Shown in pieces: positions 15,449 to 22,227 of a stretch of 64,000 nt of DNA (position 1 is the stretch's first letter; every line of letters begins with the position of its first letter). Made by a program: the position numbers and the translations under genes. Source of the DNA: Pseudomonadota bacterium (GTDB taxonomy: Bacteria > Pseudomonadota > Alphaproteobacteria > GCA-2746255). The notes under the pieces were generated by a model that saw nothing but the letters and a program-made list of their open reading frames with translations, had not been told where the DNA came from and ran no database searches. The stretch spans positions 227,213 to 291,212 of the forward strand of contig JBFMHN010000001.1 in assembly GCA_040752895.1 (NCBI GenBank), read 5' to 3'.

Positions 15449-16411
15449 TCAACCGCTCCCTGCCGGGCGGAGGCATCGCGCGAGGTGGCTCGCGTTCTTC
15501 CGCATCATCTCGAAGTAAAGCTTGGGCCCGGGGACAAACCCGCTGCCTAACGGATCAAGCTCGTCCACGCGAAGGTCGGTACCCTCGGCCAGCCGATCGA
15601 CGAGGGCCGAGACGAATTGCGGCTCGTGGAAGAGGCAGCGAAACCCGCCTTTCGCGATCGTTTTCCGAAGCTCGATGAGGCGGCGGGTGCCGGCGCGCTG
15701 TTCCGGATCGATGGCGATGGCTTCGGACGGGCCCAAGCTATAGCGGCGGTCGAGATAGGCGTAGGCGTCGTGAAAAGCGAGGTAGGGGATGCCGGCGATC
15801 GGTCTGAATTTTTCGGTCAATTCCGAATCGAGCGTCCGGAGCGCCAAGCCGAGCTTCGTCAGGTTCCGCCGGTAGATTTCTTCCCGGGCCGGGTCGGCCT
15901 CGGCAAGACGGTTGGCGATGACGGTGGCGGCGAGTAGGGCGTTTTCCGGGTCGAGCCAGAAATGGGGGTCTATCCGCATTTCCCCTCCGCGGTCTTCCTG
16001 GCTTCCTTCGCTCTCCCCGTCTTCCTCCGGCACCGCGTTCTCTTTGTGGCTGGCACGCGCCTTCAGGCGGTAGATTTCGGGCGCGTGCAGCAGGGCGTGA
16101 ACCTTGCCCCCTTTCTCGGCCTCCAGCGCTTTGAGAAACTTCTCCAGAAAGGTCTCGAGCTCGGGCCCTGCCCAGAAGACAAGATCGGCCTTGGCCAGAC
16201 GTCGTGCGCTGGAAGGCTTTAACGCATAGGCGTGCGGCGAAAATCCGGCTTCGAGGAGAAGGGTGGGCTCGCCAACGCCTTCCAGAAGGGCGGCGGCGAG
16301 GGAATGCAGGGGCGGGATGCTGACGACGACGTTGGGTGGCGCTTCCGCCCGCACCGGGAGAGTAAAACCGATAACATATACTAAAATATAAATAGCTCTT
16401 GATAAGTACAT
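15449..16411 (-). CDS. znuA: ZnuA zinc-binding protein of the high-affinity importer
   Basis: 320-residue periplasmic binding protein (cluster A-I). A signal peptide covers residues 1-22 (ending PVRAEA). The metal-site pattern is readable: PPLHSL (first His), the loop between about residues 115-145 with few histidines but many acids (SHKEN, EEDGESEGSQED), DPHFWLD, FHDAYAYL and a final EPQF. The loop is less histidine-rich than in many ZnuA proteins. It is divergent from the zur-znuC reading frame across an AT-rich promoter region and heads a unit with hisI, a ModA-like gene and a DUF6134 gene. Confidence 0.93.
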   Translation of the reverse strand: MYLSRAIYILVYVIGFTLPVRAEAPPNVVVSIPPLHSLAAALLEGVGEPTLLLEAGFSPHAYALKPSSARRLAKADLVFWAGPELETFLEKFLKALEAEKGGKVHALLHAPEIYRLKARASHKENAVPEEDGESEGSQEDRGGEMRIDPHFWLDPENALLAATVIANRLAEADPAREEIYRRNLTKLGLALRTLDSELTEKFRPIAGIPYLAFHDAYAYLDRRYSLGPSEAIAIDPEQRAGTRRLIELRKTIAKGGFRCLFHEPQFVSALVDRLAEGTDLRVDELDPLGSGFVPGPKLYFEMMRKNASHLARCLRPAGSG

Positions 16412-16639
16412 GTAAAATAATACTTTTTTGAAAAATTTCCTATAGTAGATCCTAGGGTGGAATCGAATTCTAAATCCTTTTTACTTTCGCAACTAAATAC
16501 GTTACATTATATCATATATTAATTTAATGCATTGAAAATACGTAATTTATTATGTTTGGATAAAAAAACGCAAGAAATCGAAAAAAACACGATTTTTCCC
16601 GCCCCACCACCCGGCAAGGGGCATGATCACGGTCGTTGC
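16412..16639. promoter_or_regulatory. AT-rich divergent promoter region with a candidate Zur box
   Basis: Much more AT-rich than its surroundings from 16412 to about 16600. It separates znuA from the zur-znuC gene. At 16501-16513 GTTACATTATATC matches 11 of 13 bases of GTTATATTATAAC, the kind of palindrome bound by alphaproteobacterial Zur; GATAACATATAC at about 16370 is a second, weaker candidate inside the first codons of znuA. One operator could control both units. The assignment rests on similarity by eye. Confidence 0.45.
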
Positions 16640-17917
16640 ATGACCGATGCCTTGGCCGTGGCGGCCAGGCTTTGTCAGGAACGGGGGGTGCGCTTCACCC
16701 CATTGCGGCGCCGTGTGCTGGAACTAATTTGGGGTAGTCATATACCGCTTGGCGCCTATGCGATCCTTGATCACCTGCAGGCAGAAGGGAAGCGCATCCG
16801 GCCGGCCACGGTTTACCGCGCCCTCGATTTTCTTAAGGATCAAGGCCTGGTCCATCGGATCGAGTCCAAAAATGCCTATATCGGTTGCGTTGATCCCGCC
16901 CGGTCCCATGCCGGGCAGCATCTGATTTGCCGGCGTTGCGGCAAAGTCACCGAACTCGACGACCGGGCGGTCGTGCTTACGCTGGCGAGCGGGGCCAGGG
17001 CGAAGGACTTCGAGCTTGAGGGGACGGCGGCCATCGAGGCACAGGGTTTTTGTCGGGATTGCCGGCCTGAAGAAGCCGTTCAAAAACCGACCTTTCCGTC
17101 GCTCGAAACGCCGTCTGCTGGGCCGGTCGCGGAGACTCCTCTCAAGCATGTCAGGCCGGCCGGCCGGCCTCTGATTGCGGCAAGGGGGATCACCGTCCGC
17201 CACGCCGGGGTGGACATTCTCGATCGCGTCGATCTTGCCGTGCACGCGGGCGAGATCCTGACGATCATCGGTCCGAACGGCTCCGGCAAGACGACGCTCG
17301 TGCGCGCGCTGCTAGGTCTCGTCGCGCCGGCGGCGGGCACGGTCTGGAAGGCGGCGGGCTTGCGCGTCGGCTACGTGCCCCAAAGCTTCGCGGTGGAGCC
17401 GAACCTGCCGCTTACCGTGCGGCGTTTTCTGAAGTTCGCCGACCGAAAAGAATCGGCGATCGAAGCGGCCCTCGACCGGATGGGGGCCGGGGATACCCTC
17501 GACCGTCCGATCCAGGGCCTTTCCGGCGGTGAGCTTCGCCGTGTCCTGTTGGCCCGGGCGATGCTGCGGAAGCCCGACCTTCTGGTTCTGGATGAGCCGG
17601 TACAGGGTGTCGACATCCTGGGCCAGGCCGACCTCTATCGCCGGATCAACGAATTGCGCGAGAAAGACGGCACCGCCATCCTAATGATCTCGCACGACCT
17701 TCGCCTGGTCATGGGGGCGACCGATGAGGTCGTTTGCCTCAACCATCACGTTTGCTGTGCCGGCTACCCGGAAGCTGTGAGCCGGCATCCGGAATACCTC
17801 GCCCTTTTCGGCGGTGCCGTGGATGCGAAGAACTTCGCCGTCTACACCCACCGCCACGACCACGTGCACGACGCGGCGGGGAACGTACTGCCGATTGCGG
17901 GCGCGGAGGAGAGCTAG
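16640..17917 (+). CDS. Zur-ZnuC fusion: Fur-family repressor joined to zinc ABC ATPase
   Basis: One uninterrupted frame of 425 residues. Residues 1-142 form a Fur/Zur-type regulator: winged helix with RFTPLRRRVLELIW and RPATVYRALDFL, then metal-site residues C83, H90, H94 and the two structural zinc pairs C97/C100 and C138/C141. A linker of about 35 residues follows, then a complete ZnuC ATPase: GPNGSGKTT (211-219), LSGGE (294-298), LLVLDEP (314-320), SHD (351-353) and a histidine-rich tail HRHDHVHD (404-411). No in-frame ATG or GTG is visible in the linker. A TTG at 16532 would add 36 residues but lies in AT-rich leader-like sequence. znuB follows after 3 bases. A frameshift or assembly error that removed a stop is the main alternative. 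Confidence 0.85.
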   Translation: MTDALAVAARLCQERGVRFTPLRRRVLELIWGSHIPLGAYAILDHLQAEGKRIRPATVYRALDFLKDQGLVHRIESKNAYIGCVDPARSHAGQHLICRRCGKVTELDDRAVVLTLASGARAKDFELEGTAAIEAQGFCRDCRPEEAVQKPTFPSLETPSAGPVAETPLKHVRPAGRPLIAARGITVRHAGVDILDRVDLAVHAGEILTIIGPNGSGKTTLVRALLGLVAPAAGTVWKAAGLRVGYVPQSFAVEPNLPLTVRRFLKFADRKESAIEAALDRMGAGDTLDRPIQGLSGGELRRVLLARAMLRKPDLLVLDEPVQGVDILGQADLYRRINELREKDGTAILMISHDLRLVMGATDEVVCLNHHVCCAGYPEAVSRHPEYLALFGGAVDAKNFAVYTHRHDHVHDAAGNVLPIAGAEES

Positions 17918-17920
17918 AGA

Positions 17921-18736
17921 ATGGACGAAATTTTGCTACGCGCGGTTCTCGCTGGCATCGGGGTCGCCTTTGTCACAGGCCCCTTGGGCGCTTTCGTCGT
18001 CTGGCGACGGATGGCTTATTTCGGGGACACGATGGCCCATTCCGCCTTTCTCGGGATCGCGCTCGGCTTTCTGCTCCATTTCGACGTGCTCATCGGCATC
18101 TTCGCAGCGGCGGTCGCCATCGCGCTCTCGCTGGCGTTCGCCGGCCGCCAGAAAGTATTGGCCACCGACACGCTGCTCGGTCTTTTCGCCCATGGCTCGC
18201 TTGCCTTCGGTCTTGTTGGGCTCGCCTTTCTTCAAGGGGTGCGCATCGATCTGATGGGCTATCTCTTCGGCGACATTCTGGCCGTGAGCGAAACGGATCT
18301 CATCTGGATATATGGCGGGGGCCTGATCGCGCTAGGCGTTCTTGCCGCCATCTGGCGTTCCCTTCTCGCCATGACCATCCACGAAGAGCTCGCCCGCGTC
18401 GAAGGCGTGCCGGTCCAGGCGACGCAAATCCTTTTCATGCTGCTGATCGCGTTGGTCATCGTCGTCGCGCTCAAGATCGTCGGCATTCTGTTGATCACCT
18501 CGCTTCTGATCATTCCGGCGGCGACCGCGCGCCGCTTCGTCTACAATCCCGAACCGATGGCGGTACTCGCCGCACTGATCGGCGTGGTTTCCGTCGCGGG
18601 CGGCGTCTTGGGCTCCTTCCAGTGGGACACGCCCTCCGGCCCCTCGATCGTGGTGATGGCGTTCCTGATTTTCGCGGCAAGCCTGCTCATCCCGATGCGT
18701 GGCCATTCGCAAGGCCGCTCAAAGGAAGCGGTGTGA
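17921..18736 (+). CDS. znuB: ZnuB zinc ABC transporter permease
   Basis: 271-residue inner-membrane protein of the ABC-3 family with about eight hydrophobic segments. The features MAYFGDTMAHSAFLGIALG (residues about 30-48), DLMGYLFGDIL and KIVGILLITSLLIIPAATARR are characteristic of zinc/manganese permeases. It begins 3 bases after the zur-znuC frame and ends 1 base before a small membrane-protein gene, so it belongs to that operon and is the expected partner of the fused ATPase and of ZnuA. Confidence 0.94.
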   Translation: MDEILLRAVLAGIGVAFVTGPLGAFVVWRRMAYFGDTMAHSAFLGIALGFLLHFDVLIGIFAAAVAIALSLAFAGRQKVLATDTLLGLFAHGSLAFGLVGLAFLQGVRIDLMGYLFGDILAVSETDLIWIYGGGLIALGVLAAIWRSLLAMTIHEELARVEGVPVQATQILFMLLIALVIVVALKIVGILLITSLLIIPAATARRFVYNPEPMAVLAALIGVVSVAGGVLGSFQWDTPSGPSIVVMAFLIFAASLLIPMRGHSQGRSKEAV

Positions 18737-19139: not shown

Positions 19140-20489
19140 ATGATTCCCAAACTTAAACTTATCCCGGCGGCGGGCCTGGCTTTTGCCCTCGCGTCGATGC
19201 CCGCCCTTGGCCAGACGCCGGACCTCAATCAAGAACAAGAAATTGCAAGCATCAAGAAGCAAATGGATGCCATGCGCAGTCTGTACGAACAGCAGATCCA
19301 GGCGCTCGAAACGCGGATCCAGACACTTGAGAAGCAGAAAACCGTCGAAAAATCTCCGTCGCAACCGGCGGTGCTGGCGGCGCGCCCTCAAGGGCTCGGC
19401 CGGGAATTTCAGATCGGGCTTTCCGTATCCACGGCGGCCGGCGGGTCGAGCGAGAACAACGAGGTCCTGTCAAACCTCCAGCGCGGCGAGCACGACCCGA
19501 ACAAGAACGGTTTCACCCTGCAGAGCGGTGAGCTTTTCCTGGGCGGCAGCGTCAGTCCCGACTTTGATGCCCAGGCAAACATTATTTTCAAGATCGACGC
19601 CGAAGGCGAAACCTTGGTTGAGCTTGAGGAAATGTTTTTCGTGACGCGAACGCTGCCCTATGGCTTTCAAGTAAAGGGCGGGCAGTATTTCACGGAGTTC
19701 GGTCGCGCGAACGCCATGCATCTGCACCAGTGGGATTTCGTCGATCAGCCGGTCATTCTGTCGCGGCTGTTCGGACCCGATGGCTTGAGGAGCCAGGGCG
19801 TCCGCGTCTCCTGGCTGCCAAGGCTGCCGTGGTATTCCGAGTTTTTCCTCGGCGCGCAGAACGCGAAAGGGGAAACCGCCGTCAGCTTTTTGGGGAATGC
19901 GGGCGAGGAAATCGCAGGCTTCACGCTTGGCGACCGGCAAAGCCGCAATTTAAGCGACCTTCTTTACGCTGCTCGATGGCTGAATGGCTTCGATGTTTCC
20001 GACCGGTTGAGCGTGAATCTGGGCTTTTCCGGCCTCTATGGCCCGAACGCGACGGGAAGCGACACGAAAACCTACGTCGTTGGCGGTGATTTGTATGCCA
20101 AGTGGCAACCCGAAAGCACGCAGCGCGGTTTCCCGTTCGTGGCGTTTCATGCGGAAGCGCTCTATCGCAACTATGAAGCCGGCGACCCCGCACGGATACG
20201 TCTCGATGACTGGGGCGCCTTCGGCCAGGTCATTTACGGGTTTTCCCCTGGTTTGGCGTCCGGCCTGCGGCTCGATTTCGCGGGCAGCGACGGCAACGAT
20301 CCAACGGATCCCTTCCGCGACACGCGCTGGCGGCTTTCCCCGAACCTGACTTGGTTCCCAACCGAATTCACCAAAGTGCGGCTTCAGTACAATCGGGATT
20401 GGGCCCAGTTCCTGCCAAACGATTCAGCCGACACGATCTGGCTGCAGTTCCAATTCTCGTTGGGCAGTCATTTTGCCCATACGTTCTAA
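19140..20489 (+). CDS. outer-membrane beta-barrel protein of the zinc region
   Basis: 449-residue protein with a signal peptide (cleavage near MPALGQ), a coiled-coil segment (residues about 30-70, EQEIASIKKQMDAM) and then a long stretch of alternating strands ending in Phe (GSHFAHTF), the usual C-terminal signature of an outer-membrane barrel. No TonB box or plug domain is recognisable, so it is more like a porin than a TonB-dependent receptor. It starts about 100 bases after the small membrane protein gene and is followed after 11 bases by a metal-binding protein gene, suggesting a path for metal across both membranes. A strong ribosome-binding site (AGGAGGG) precedes the ATG. Confidence 0.8.
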   Translation: MIPKLKLIPAAGLAFALASMPALGQTPDLNQEQEIASIKKQMDAMRSLYEQQIQALETRIQTLEKQKTVEKSPSQPAVLAARPQGLGREFQIGLSVSTAAGGSSENNEVLSNLQRGEHDPNKNGFTLQSGELFLGGSVSPDFDAQANIIFKIDAEGETLVELEEMFFVTRTLPYGFQVKGGQYFTEFGRANAMHLHQWDFVDQPVILSRLFGPDGLRSQGVRVSWLPRLPWYSEFFLGAQNAKGETAVSFLGNAGEEIAGFTLGDRQSRNLSDLLYAARWLNGFDVSDRLSVNLGFSGLYGPNATGSDTKTYVVGGDLYAKWQPESTQRGFPFVAFHAEALYRNYEAGDPARIRLDDWGAFGQVIYGFSPGLASGLRLDFAGSDGNDPTDPFRDTRWRLSPNLTWFPTEFTKVRLQYNRDWAQFLPNDSADTIWLQFQFSLGSHFAHTF

Positions 20490-20500
20490 GGGGGTGCCAT

Positions 20501-21415
20501 ATGTTGCGATTCCTTTGCATGTTTTTTCTGGTGTGGGGCGGCTTGATCGGTTCGGCTTGGTCGGCGACGGTCAACGTCGTCACGACGACGACCGATCTCG
20601 CCGCGATTGCCCGCGCGGTTGGAGGGAAAGACGTCGCCGTGCGGAGCCTGACCAGCGGCGCCAGCGACCCCCATTACCTAGCGGCCAAACCCAGCATGAT
20701 TCGCGCCATCTACGAGGCGGACCTCCTGCTGCTCAACGGTGCCGAGCTCGAAAGCGGTTGGTTGCCGGCCGCCGTGCAGGCGGGCCGGAACCCGCGTGTT
20801 CAGCCGGGCCGGCCGGGCTATCTCGATCTTTCGGAGGCTGTGCGGCTGTTGAAAGTGCCGGAGGGGCCCATCACCCGCGCGATGGGCGACGTACACCCCT
20901 CCGGCAATCCGCACTACATGCTGGATCCTCGCAATGGGGCGCGGGTTGCAACCGCGGTCGCCGAGCGGTTGAAGGCGATCGACCCTACCCACGCCGACGC
21001 CTACCAGGCGCGGCTGGAAACGTTTCTTGATGCCTTGAACCGCCGCTTCGCGGACTGGCGGGACCGGCTTGCTTTCCTGCAAGGCCGCAAGGCGATCTCC
21101 TATCACAAGAGTTTGAGCTACCTTGCGGATGCTTTCGGCTTCGAAATCGTGGATCAAGTCGAGCCGCTGCCGGGGATTTCACCCACCGTTTCCCACCTTC
21201 AGGGGCTTATCGCCCGTATTCAGGCCGAGCAAATCGGGCTTTTGGTCATGGAAGCCTTTTACGAGCGCAGGTCTTCCGATTTTCTGAACAAGCAAACGGG
21301 GATTCGTGCCGTTGTTCTGCCAACCATGGTGGGGGCGACGCCCGGGATCGAAACCTATTTTGATCTTTTCGAGGCCATCGTCGACGCGCTGAAAGAATCG
21401 GGAGGTAAGACATGA
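20501..21415 (+). CDS. second ZnuA-family metal-binding protein
   Basis: 304-residue periplasmic protein of cluster A-I (ZnuA/MntA/TroA). Signal peptide to about residue 22 (GSAWSA). Expected metal-site residues: SDPHYLAAKPS, NPHYMLDP, SYHKSLSYLADAFG and a distal acidic residue near VVLPTMVGATPG. It lacks the histidine-rich loop of classical ZnuA, so zinc, manganese or another divalent metal is possible. The ATG is preceded by GGGGTG. It overlaps the downstream permease gene by four bases. Confidence 0.87.
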   Translation: MLRFLCMFFLVWGGLIGSAWSATVNVVTTTTDLAAIARAVGGKDVAVRSLTSGASDPHYLAAKPSMIRAIYEADLLLLNGAELESGWLPAAVQAGRNPRVQPGRPGYLDLSEAVRLLKVPEGPITRAMGDVHPSGNPHYMLDPRNGARVATAVAERLKAIDPTHADAYQARLETFLDALNRRFADWRDRLAFLQGRKAISYHKSLSYLADAFGFEIVDQVEPLPGISPTVSHLQGLIARIQAEQIGLLVMEAFYERRSSDFLNKQTGIRAVVLPTMVGATPGIETYFDLFEAIVDALKESGGKT

Positions 21416-22227
21416 GCATGTGGCAATTTCTGGCACCGGCCTTTCTCTTCAGCGTATTGCTGATCGTCACGCACACCTATTTCGGCCTGCACGTTCTGGC
21501 GCGCGGTATTGTCTTCATCGACCTTGCTCTGGCGCAGTTCGCGGCGCTTGGCGTCAGCCTCGTGTTCCTGGCCGGCGGGGATACCCATGGCGAGCTGGCG
21601 CTGCTGTCCAGCTTTGCTGTGGCGCTGGCGGCGGCCCTCGGTTTTTCCTTGTTGCGTCGCGTGCCTTCCAAAACGACCCGGGAAGTCGTCATCGGGATCG
21701 CTTATGTGGGAGCGACGGCACTCTCGGTGCTTGTGCTGAGCCGCTCCGTTCACGGCATGGAAGAATTGAAGGCGATCTTCAACGGCAACATCTTGTGGGT
21801 GAGCTGGCCGGAGGTCGGCATGGTTGCCACTTTTTACGCCGTCCTCGTGGTCTTGCATTTTGTTTTCCGGCGTCGGTTCCTTGTTCTCTCTTTTTCCTCG
21901 GGCCGGGAAGGGGAACCTTCGCTGGCATGGGAGTTCGCCTTCTTTGCTTCCTTCGCCGCCGTCATCGCGCTGGCCGTGAACGTCGCGGGTGTGCTCTTGG
22001 TCTTTGCCTTCCTGATCATGCCGGCGTTCGCGGCGTCCCTGCTGGTATCTTCCTTTGGCGTTCGCCTTGCGGTTGGTTGGGCGGCGGGCGCGGTGGGCAG
22101 CGTGCTGGGGCTTGGCCTCGCTTATGAAGCGGATCTTCCGGTCGGCGCGACGGTGGTCTCGATTCTAACCCTTTTGCCGGTGGCGGCAGCGTTGCTGGGC
22201 GTGATCCACCGGCGCCTGGCCGCCTGA
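21412..22227 (+). CDS. second metal ABC transporter permease without own ATPase
   Basis: 271-residue ABC-3 permease with about eight hydrophobic segments, including IVFIDLALAQFAALGVSLVFL near residue 36 and VAGVLLVFAFLIMPAFAASLLV near residue 193. It differs clearly from ZnuB (no shared long blocks) and pairs with the binding protein just upstream. The ATG overlaps the preceding stop (ATGA) and has GGAGG in front. No second ATPase gene lies in the cluster, so it may share the ATPase half of the Zur-ZnuC fusion or use one encoded elsewhere. Confidence 0.9.
   Translation: MSMWQFLAPAFLFSVLLIVTHTYFGLHVLARGIVFIDLALAQFAALGVSLVFLAGGDTHGELALLSSFAVALAAALGFSLLRRVPSKTTREVVIGIAYVGATALSVLVLSRSVHGMEELKAIFNGNILWVSWPEVGMVATFYAVLVVLHFVFRRRFLVLSFSSGREGEPSLAWEFAFFASFAAVIALAVNVAGVLLVFAFLIMPAFAASLLVSSFGVRLAVGWAAGAVGSVLGLGLAYEADLPVGATVVSILTLLPVAAALLGVIHRRLAA

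Follow-up and report, generated by a model that had tools for sequence, protein, structure and literature searches.

In all likelihood, the zinc repressor Zur and the importer ATPase ZnuC are made as one bifunctional protein in the bacterium analyzed here, as the result of a true and conserved gene fusion which places the repressor at the N-terminus and the ATPase at the C-terminus. This conclusion is drawn from sequence comparisons centered on one open reading frame of the window, i.e., the whole stretch of 64,000 nucleotides that was analyzed. As claimed in an earlier note on this DNA, a single frame joins both genes: positions 16640-17917 of the forward strand are open throughout (425 residues plus stop) and encode, in order, a complete Fur/Zur repressor, a disordered linker of 34 residues and a complete ZnuC ATPase (Table 1). 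Both halves are matched in Pfam, by FUR over residues 14-127 (PF01475, 5e-15, above the cut-off) and by ABC_tran over residues 194-321 (8e-29).

Table 1. Features of the fused gene and its neighborhood (window positions; aa, residues of the fused protein)
Feature	Position	Strand	Remarks
znuA	15449..16411	-	zinc-binding protein, divergent; PF01297 7e-59
Candidate Zur box CGTTACATTATATCA	16500..16514		in the znuA-fusion intergenic region; differs from TGTTATANTATAACA at 3 positions
Upstream extension with N-terminal motif PPPGKGHDHGRC	16523..16639	+	open frame; probable location of the real start
Zur (Fur family) domain	16640..17062	+	aa 1-141; zinc ligands C97/C100 and C138/C141 (structural), H72, C83, H90 and E105 (regulatory)
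Disordered linker RPEEAVQKPTFPSLETPSAGPVAETPLKHVRPAG	17063..17164 (about)	+	aa 142-175, 34 aa; pLDDT <50 at aa 147-169
ZnuC ATPase domain	17165..17914	+	aa 176-425; C-terminal His-rich tail
Walker A	17270-17293	+	ZnuC half
Signature	17519-17533	+	ZnuC half
Walker B	17579-17599	+	ZnuC half
H-loop	17684-17698	+	ZnuC half
znuB	17921..18736	+	permease; PF00950 3e-71, NF007089

Zur and ZnuC domains

The nearest solved chains to the N-terminal part are a Fur-family regulator (7dh7) and Escherichia coli Zur (4mtd), and the predicted structure has the elements expected of a winged-helix FUR domain. In E. coli Zur, the zinc ligands are Cys103, 106, 143 and 146 together with His77, Cys88, His96 and Glu111 (PMC4219657). 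Alignment to 4MTD revealed counterparts of all eight in the window protein, the counterpart of H90 being shifted in the fused proteins of a second family (f59, see below). While E. coli Zur is free-standing (171 residues), the window protein carries an ATPase at the C-terminus of this domain. The NCBIfam Zur model matches residues 4-150 with 110.8 bits, below its equivalog cut-off of 167 bits; since the stand-alone Zur proteins L012 (109.8 bits) and L041 (105.4 bits) also miss this cut-off, the model appears to be narrow.

In the C-terminal half, the Walker A, Q-loop, signature, Walker B and H-loop motifs are each present. The best NCBIfam match of the fused protein is ZnuC (289 bits, residues 178-417), just under the 306-bit cut-off which two fused relatives exceed (L118, 324.5 bits; L038, 312 bits). 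The nearest solved chain is a zinc-transporter ATPase (9okq, E 8e-74), the match to the ZnuC of zinc-importer structures (PDB 9okq, 9oko) being full-length over residues 178-421; the N-terminal repressor domain of the fused protein is, in contrast, absent from these ZnuC chains. A structure search with the fused protein gave only ABC ATPases among the best 50 matches and nothing new. A His-rich ZnuC tail, YTHRHDHVHD (17843-17872), is common to all six fused proteins known from this analysis.

The AlphaFold model of the fused protein consists of two confident domains separated by the disordered linker, so that the relative position of the Zur and ZnuC halves is not fixed. The completeness of both halves, already proposed from the sequence, is thus borne out by the zinc ligands and ATPase motifs that are kept, as well as by the selection acting on both domains which is described below.

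Conservation and origin of the fusion

The same fused frame was found in all species examined of the genus (4/4), which is the only genus sampled from its order, and in two species (G062 and G254, from two genera) of f59, a second alphaproteobacterial family. Both groups of carriers are small and consist of uncultured bacteria, and their genomes are fragmented assemblies and, where publicly titled, metagenome-assembled. Within the genus, dN is 0.13-0.21 for both domains vs a dS of about 0.7-2.8 (partly saturated), and these rates indicate that both the Zur and the ZnuC domains are under purifying selection. In a sample of the class, 246 of 386 genomes had a match at 1e-30 and a single frame across both halves occurred in six species only; tblastn matches that split, as in G002, could conceal a few more fusions. 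A sample of the phylum (398 genomes) contained no further fusion among the matches listed. Other long open frames covering ZnuC, in the class sample and in ten cases of the phylum sample, were rejected: the adjacent Zur half was separate or there was no Zur half.

The main alternative considered in the earlier note was a lost stop or a frameshift in the linker, i.e., an assembly or sequencing error. Such artefacts do occur, as illustrated by the locus L050, an apparent further case which was rejected as a seventh fusion: an N occupies a likely stop codon, closely followed by a ribosome site and an ATG. For the window, an error of this kind is extremely improbable and the alternative is refuted by the search of related genomes that had been suggested, which found the fusion again in five further genomes, each assembled independently; the six genomes cover two families and have differing in-frame linkers. 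The sequence containing L050 (CP059262.1) is titled Exiguobacterium profundum and has Ns, while its zur-znuC pair is of proteobacterial type; the title may be wrong.

The other relatives examined lack the fusion and have zur and znuC as separate genes, usually with a 4-nt overlap, which is the commonest arrangement among 78 stand-alone pairs. In L040 and L041, both genes share one frame, with only a stop codon and a short leader between them. These loci are the nearest to the genus in the FastTree concatenated and Zur trees, L077 being the nearest in the ZnuC tree, and their arrangement suggests how the fusion arose. The gene tree and rpoB both place the two fusion families apart, but the AU test does not reject grouping them in one clade (p-AU 0.477), and the fusion may have arisen once or twice.

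These data bear on a neutral reading of the true fusion, to which we give about even chances: loss of a stop codon would have joined two tightly coupled genes, with both halves working as before and the tether having no regulatory effect. The 4-nt overlap implies that zur and znuC were already coupled, and in the near relatives L040 and L041 just one stop codon and a short leader keep the in-frame genes apart. However, the fusion has been retained by every genus member examined despite strong divergence, and no other relative examined has it.

Linker and possible internal starts

The linkers of the six fused species comprise 34, 32, 34, 59, 38 and 21 residues, and every one is in frame and stop-free. 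Most are enriched in Pro, Ala, Ser and Glu, and their sequence is nearly unconserved, with 14-29% identity within the genus. The naive product of chances for non-coding linkers is about 1e-4, a value which is only indicative, the genomes being related.

It had been noted that the window linker has no in-frame ATG or GTG. This holds and extends to TTG, and the first later start, GTG 17210 (aa 191), already falls within the ATPase fold. Other members of the genus differ: G003 (L010) has a linker ATG that carries a strong ribosome site (-9.5 kcal/mol) and lies some 25 codons ahead of ZnuC, G001 an internal ATG (ribosome site, -6.9) and G002 an internal TTG (-5.7). With ribosome sites of fair to strong quality, these three species may also make free ZnuC, and a gene yielding both the full-length fusion and free ZnuC by internal initiation can be envisaged. 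As a general explanation, such a dual-product gene is improbable: the linker is free of in-frame ATG, GTG and TTG codons in G254 and in the window genome, and G062 has weak ones only.

Genomic context and candidate Zur boxes

The fused gene is encoded together with the other components of a zinc importer: znuB lies directly 3' of it in 6/6 genomes and znuA is divergent in the window. No second ZnuC was found in the window genome, where the next ATPase match has 35% identity. No second Zur was found either, the FUR-family genes besides the fusion being two; they score higher than the fusion against the FUR model, their match to the window Zur is weak or nil, and they are presumably Fur- and Irr-like. 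With no separate Zur or ZnuC in this genome, the fused chain is most likely the source of both functions.

The same gene order is known in Pseudomonas aeruginosa (np20/zur), in which a single operon carries zur, znuC and znuB; Zur is the repressor of this operon, including its own gene, and of the divergent znuA (PMC3781045). In that organism, zur and znuC are separate genes, in contrast to the single frame described here. A candidate Zur box lies between znuA and the fusion gene of the window; it is weak alone, 6.6% of shuffles being equally good. Upstream candidate boxes were found for all six fusions, with 0 mismatches in G062 and G254, 1 in G003, 2 in G002, and 3 in G001 and the window; the better boxes of G062, G254, G003 and G002 are positioned similarly to that of the window. 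A genome-wide scan was uninformative, yielding fewer matches than the control, and the best other match is ~59 kb away from the window, in a neighborhood of genes without evident zinc role. The gap between znuA and the fusion (16400-16599) is AT-rich: its GC content falls sharply to 0.25, against about 62% in the surrounding region.

The window also encodes, at 20351-22227 (+), a second ZnuA-like binding protein paired with an ABC-3 permease but with no adjacent ATPase gene; the ZnuC half of the fusion might serve this pair as well. A second ABC-3 permease is also present in G003.

Possible roles of the tether

The favored reading is a bifunctional chain made up of a zinc-responsive Zur half, a flexible linker and a ZnuC half driving ZnuB, which would link zinc sensor and pump covalently; in the simplest version, the flexible chain would just bear two functions. 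In the presence of zinc, the Zur half would dimerize and repress the divergent znuA / zur-znuC-znuB promoter, making the fusion an autogenous repressor. Under zinc scarcity, the operon would be derepressed and new chains would dock on ZnuB through their ATPase half. Since both halves act as homodimers, either role would be open to one dimer. Chains left over from docking on ZnuB could act as the repressor, so that pump assembly and repressor level would be tied one to one. Part of the repressor may also sit at the membrane. Since both are made as a single chain, the gene switch may be physically carried by the pump that it controls.

We can only infer a regulatory benefit of the tether. The logic advanced in the earlier note, in which the repressor would sense the transport state or be held at the membrane, gains plausibility from two known analogous systems. 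In the maltose importer, the idle ATPase MalK anchors the transcription factor MalT at the membrane (PMC10427625), which is likewise a physical coupling between importer ATPase and regulator; this coupling is nevertheless non-covalent, and MalT is an activator that is not homologous to the Zur half. Trifunctional PutA switches between DNA and the membrane (PMC5293562) and, similarly to the fusion, has an N-terminal repressor domain on the machine whose operon it represses; PutA, however, combines an enzyme with a ribbon-helix-helix domain, in place of a transporter ATPase and a Fur fold.

Both precedents, along with the maintenance of the fusion in two families and flexible linkers whose length leaves both domains able to act, speak for a transport-state switch, in which fusion engaged by ZnuB would keep Zur off DNA or feed it incoming zinc, while idle or excess protein would repress; this would be MalK-MalT or PutA in a covalent version. 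Against it, neither a conserved linker motif nor an extra signal-passing domain was found among the fused proteins, and we hold this switch to be possible but rather unlikely. Slightly more doubtful still is a one-chain sensor-pump in which ZnuC-ZnuB engagement would switch the Zur half, the repressor reading the transport state or incoming zinc at the membrane in addition to cytosolic zinc; no earlier description of such a covalent transporter-repressor is known. The scores behind these gradings overlap, the neutral and switch readings both being forms of the best explanation, a true fusion.

The earlier note knew of no such regulatory arrangement among described Zur proteins and, consistently, a search of the papers available found no description of a fused Zur. 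If the tether has a role, the fusion would be a natural ABC importer whose ATPase bears its own transcriptional repressor, and a transport-activity input to metal sensing would become testable through one linker cut. Even if it is neutral, a repressor and a transport ATPase would have been retained when covalently joined, with several conserved examples for study.

Start of the fused gene

The start first given for the open reading frame, 16640, is probably too late. The frame is open upstream back to 16523, and the residues just before Met 16640 (PPPGKGHDHGRC, PPPGxGHDHxRC across the genus) are conserved within the genus. The matching position of G002 lacks a Met, and an HxH motif occurs at the place preceding this position in 72 of the 78 stand-alone Zur relatives. 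Together, these observations suggest that the N-terminus lies upstream, the candidate starts being TTG 16532 and TTG 16556, neither of which has a Shine-Dalgarno site beside it. The HDHxxC motif encoded ahead of the Zur domain (16523-16639, +) is a possible extra metal site.
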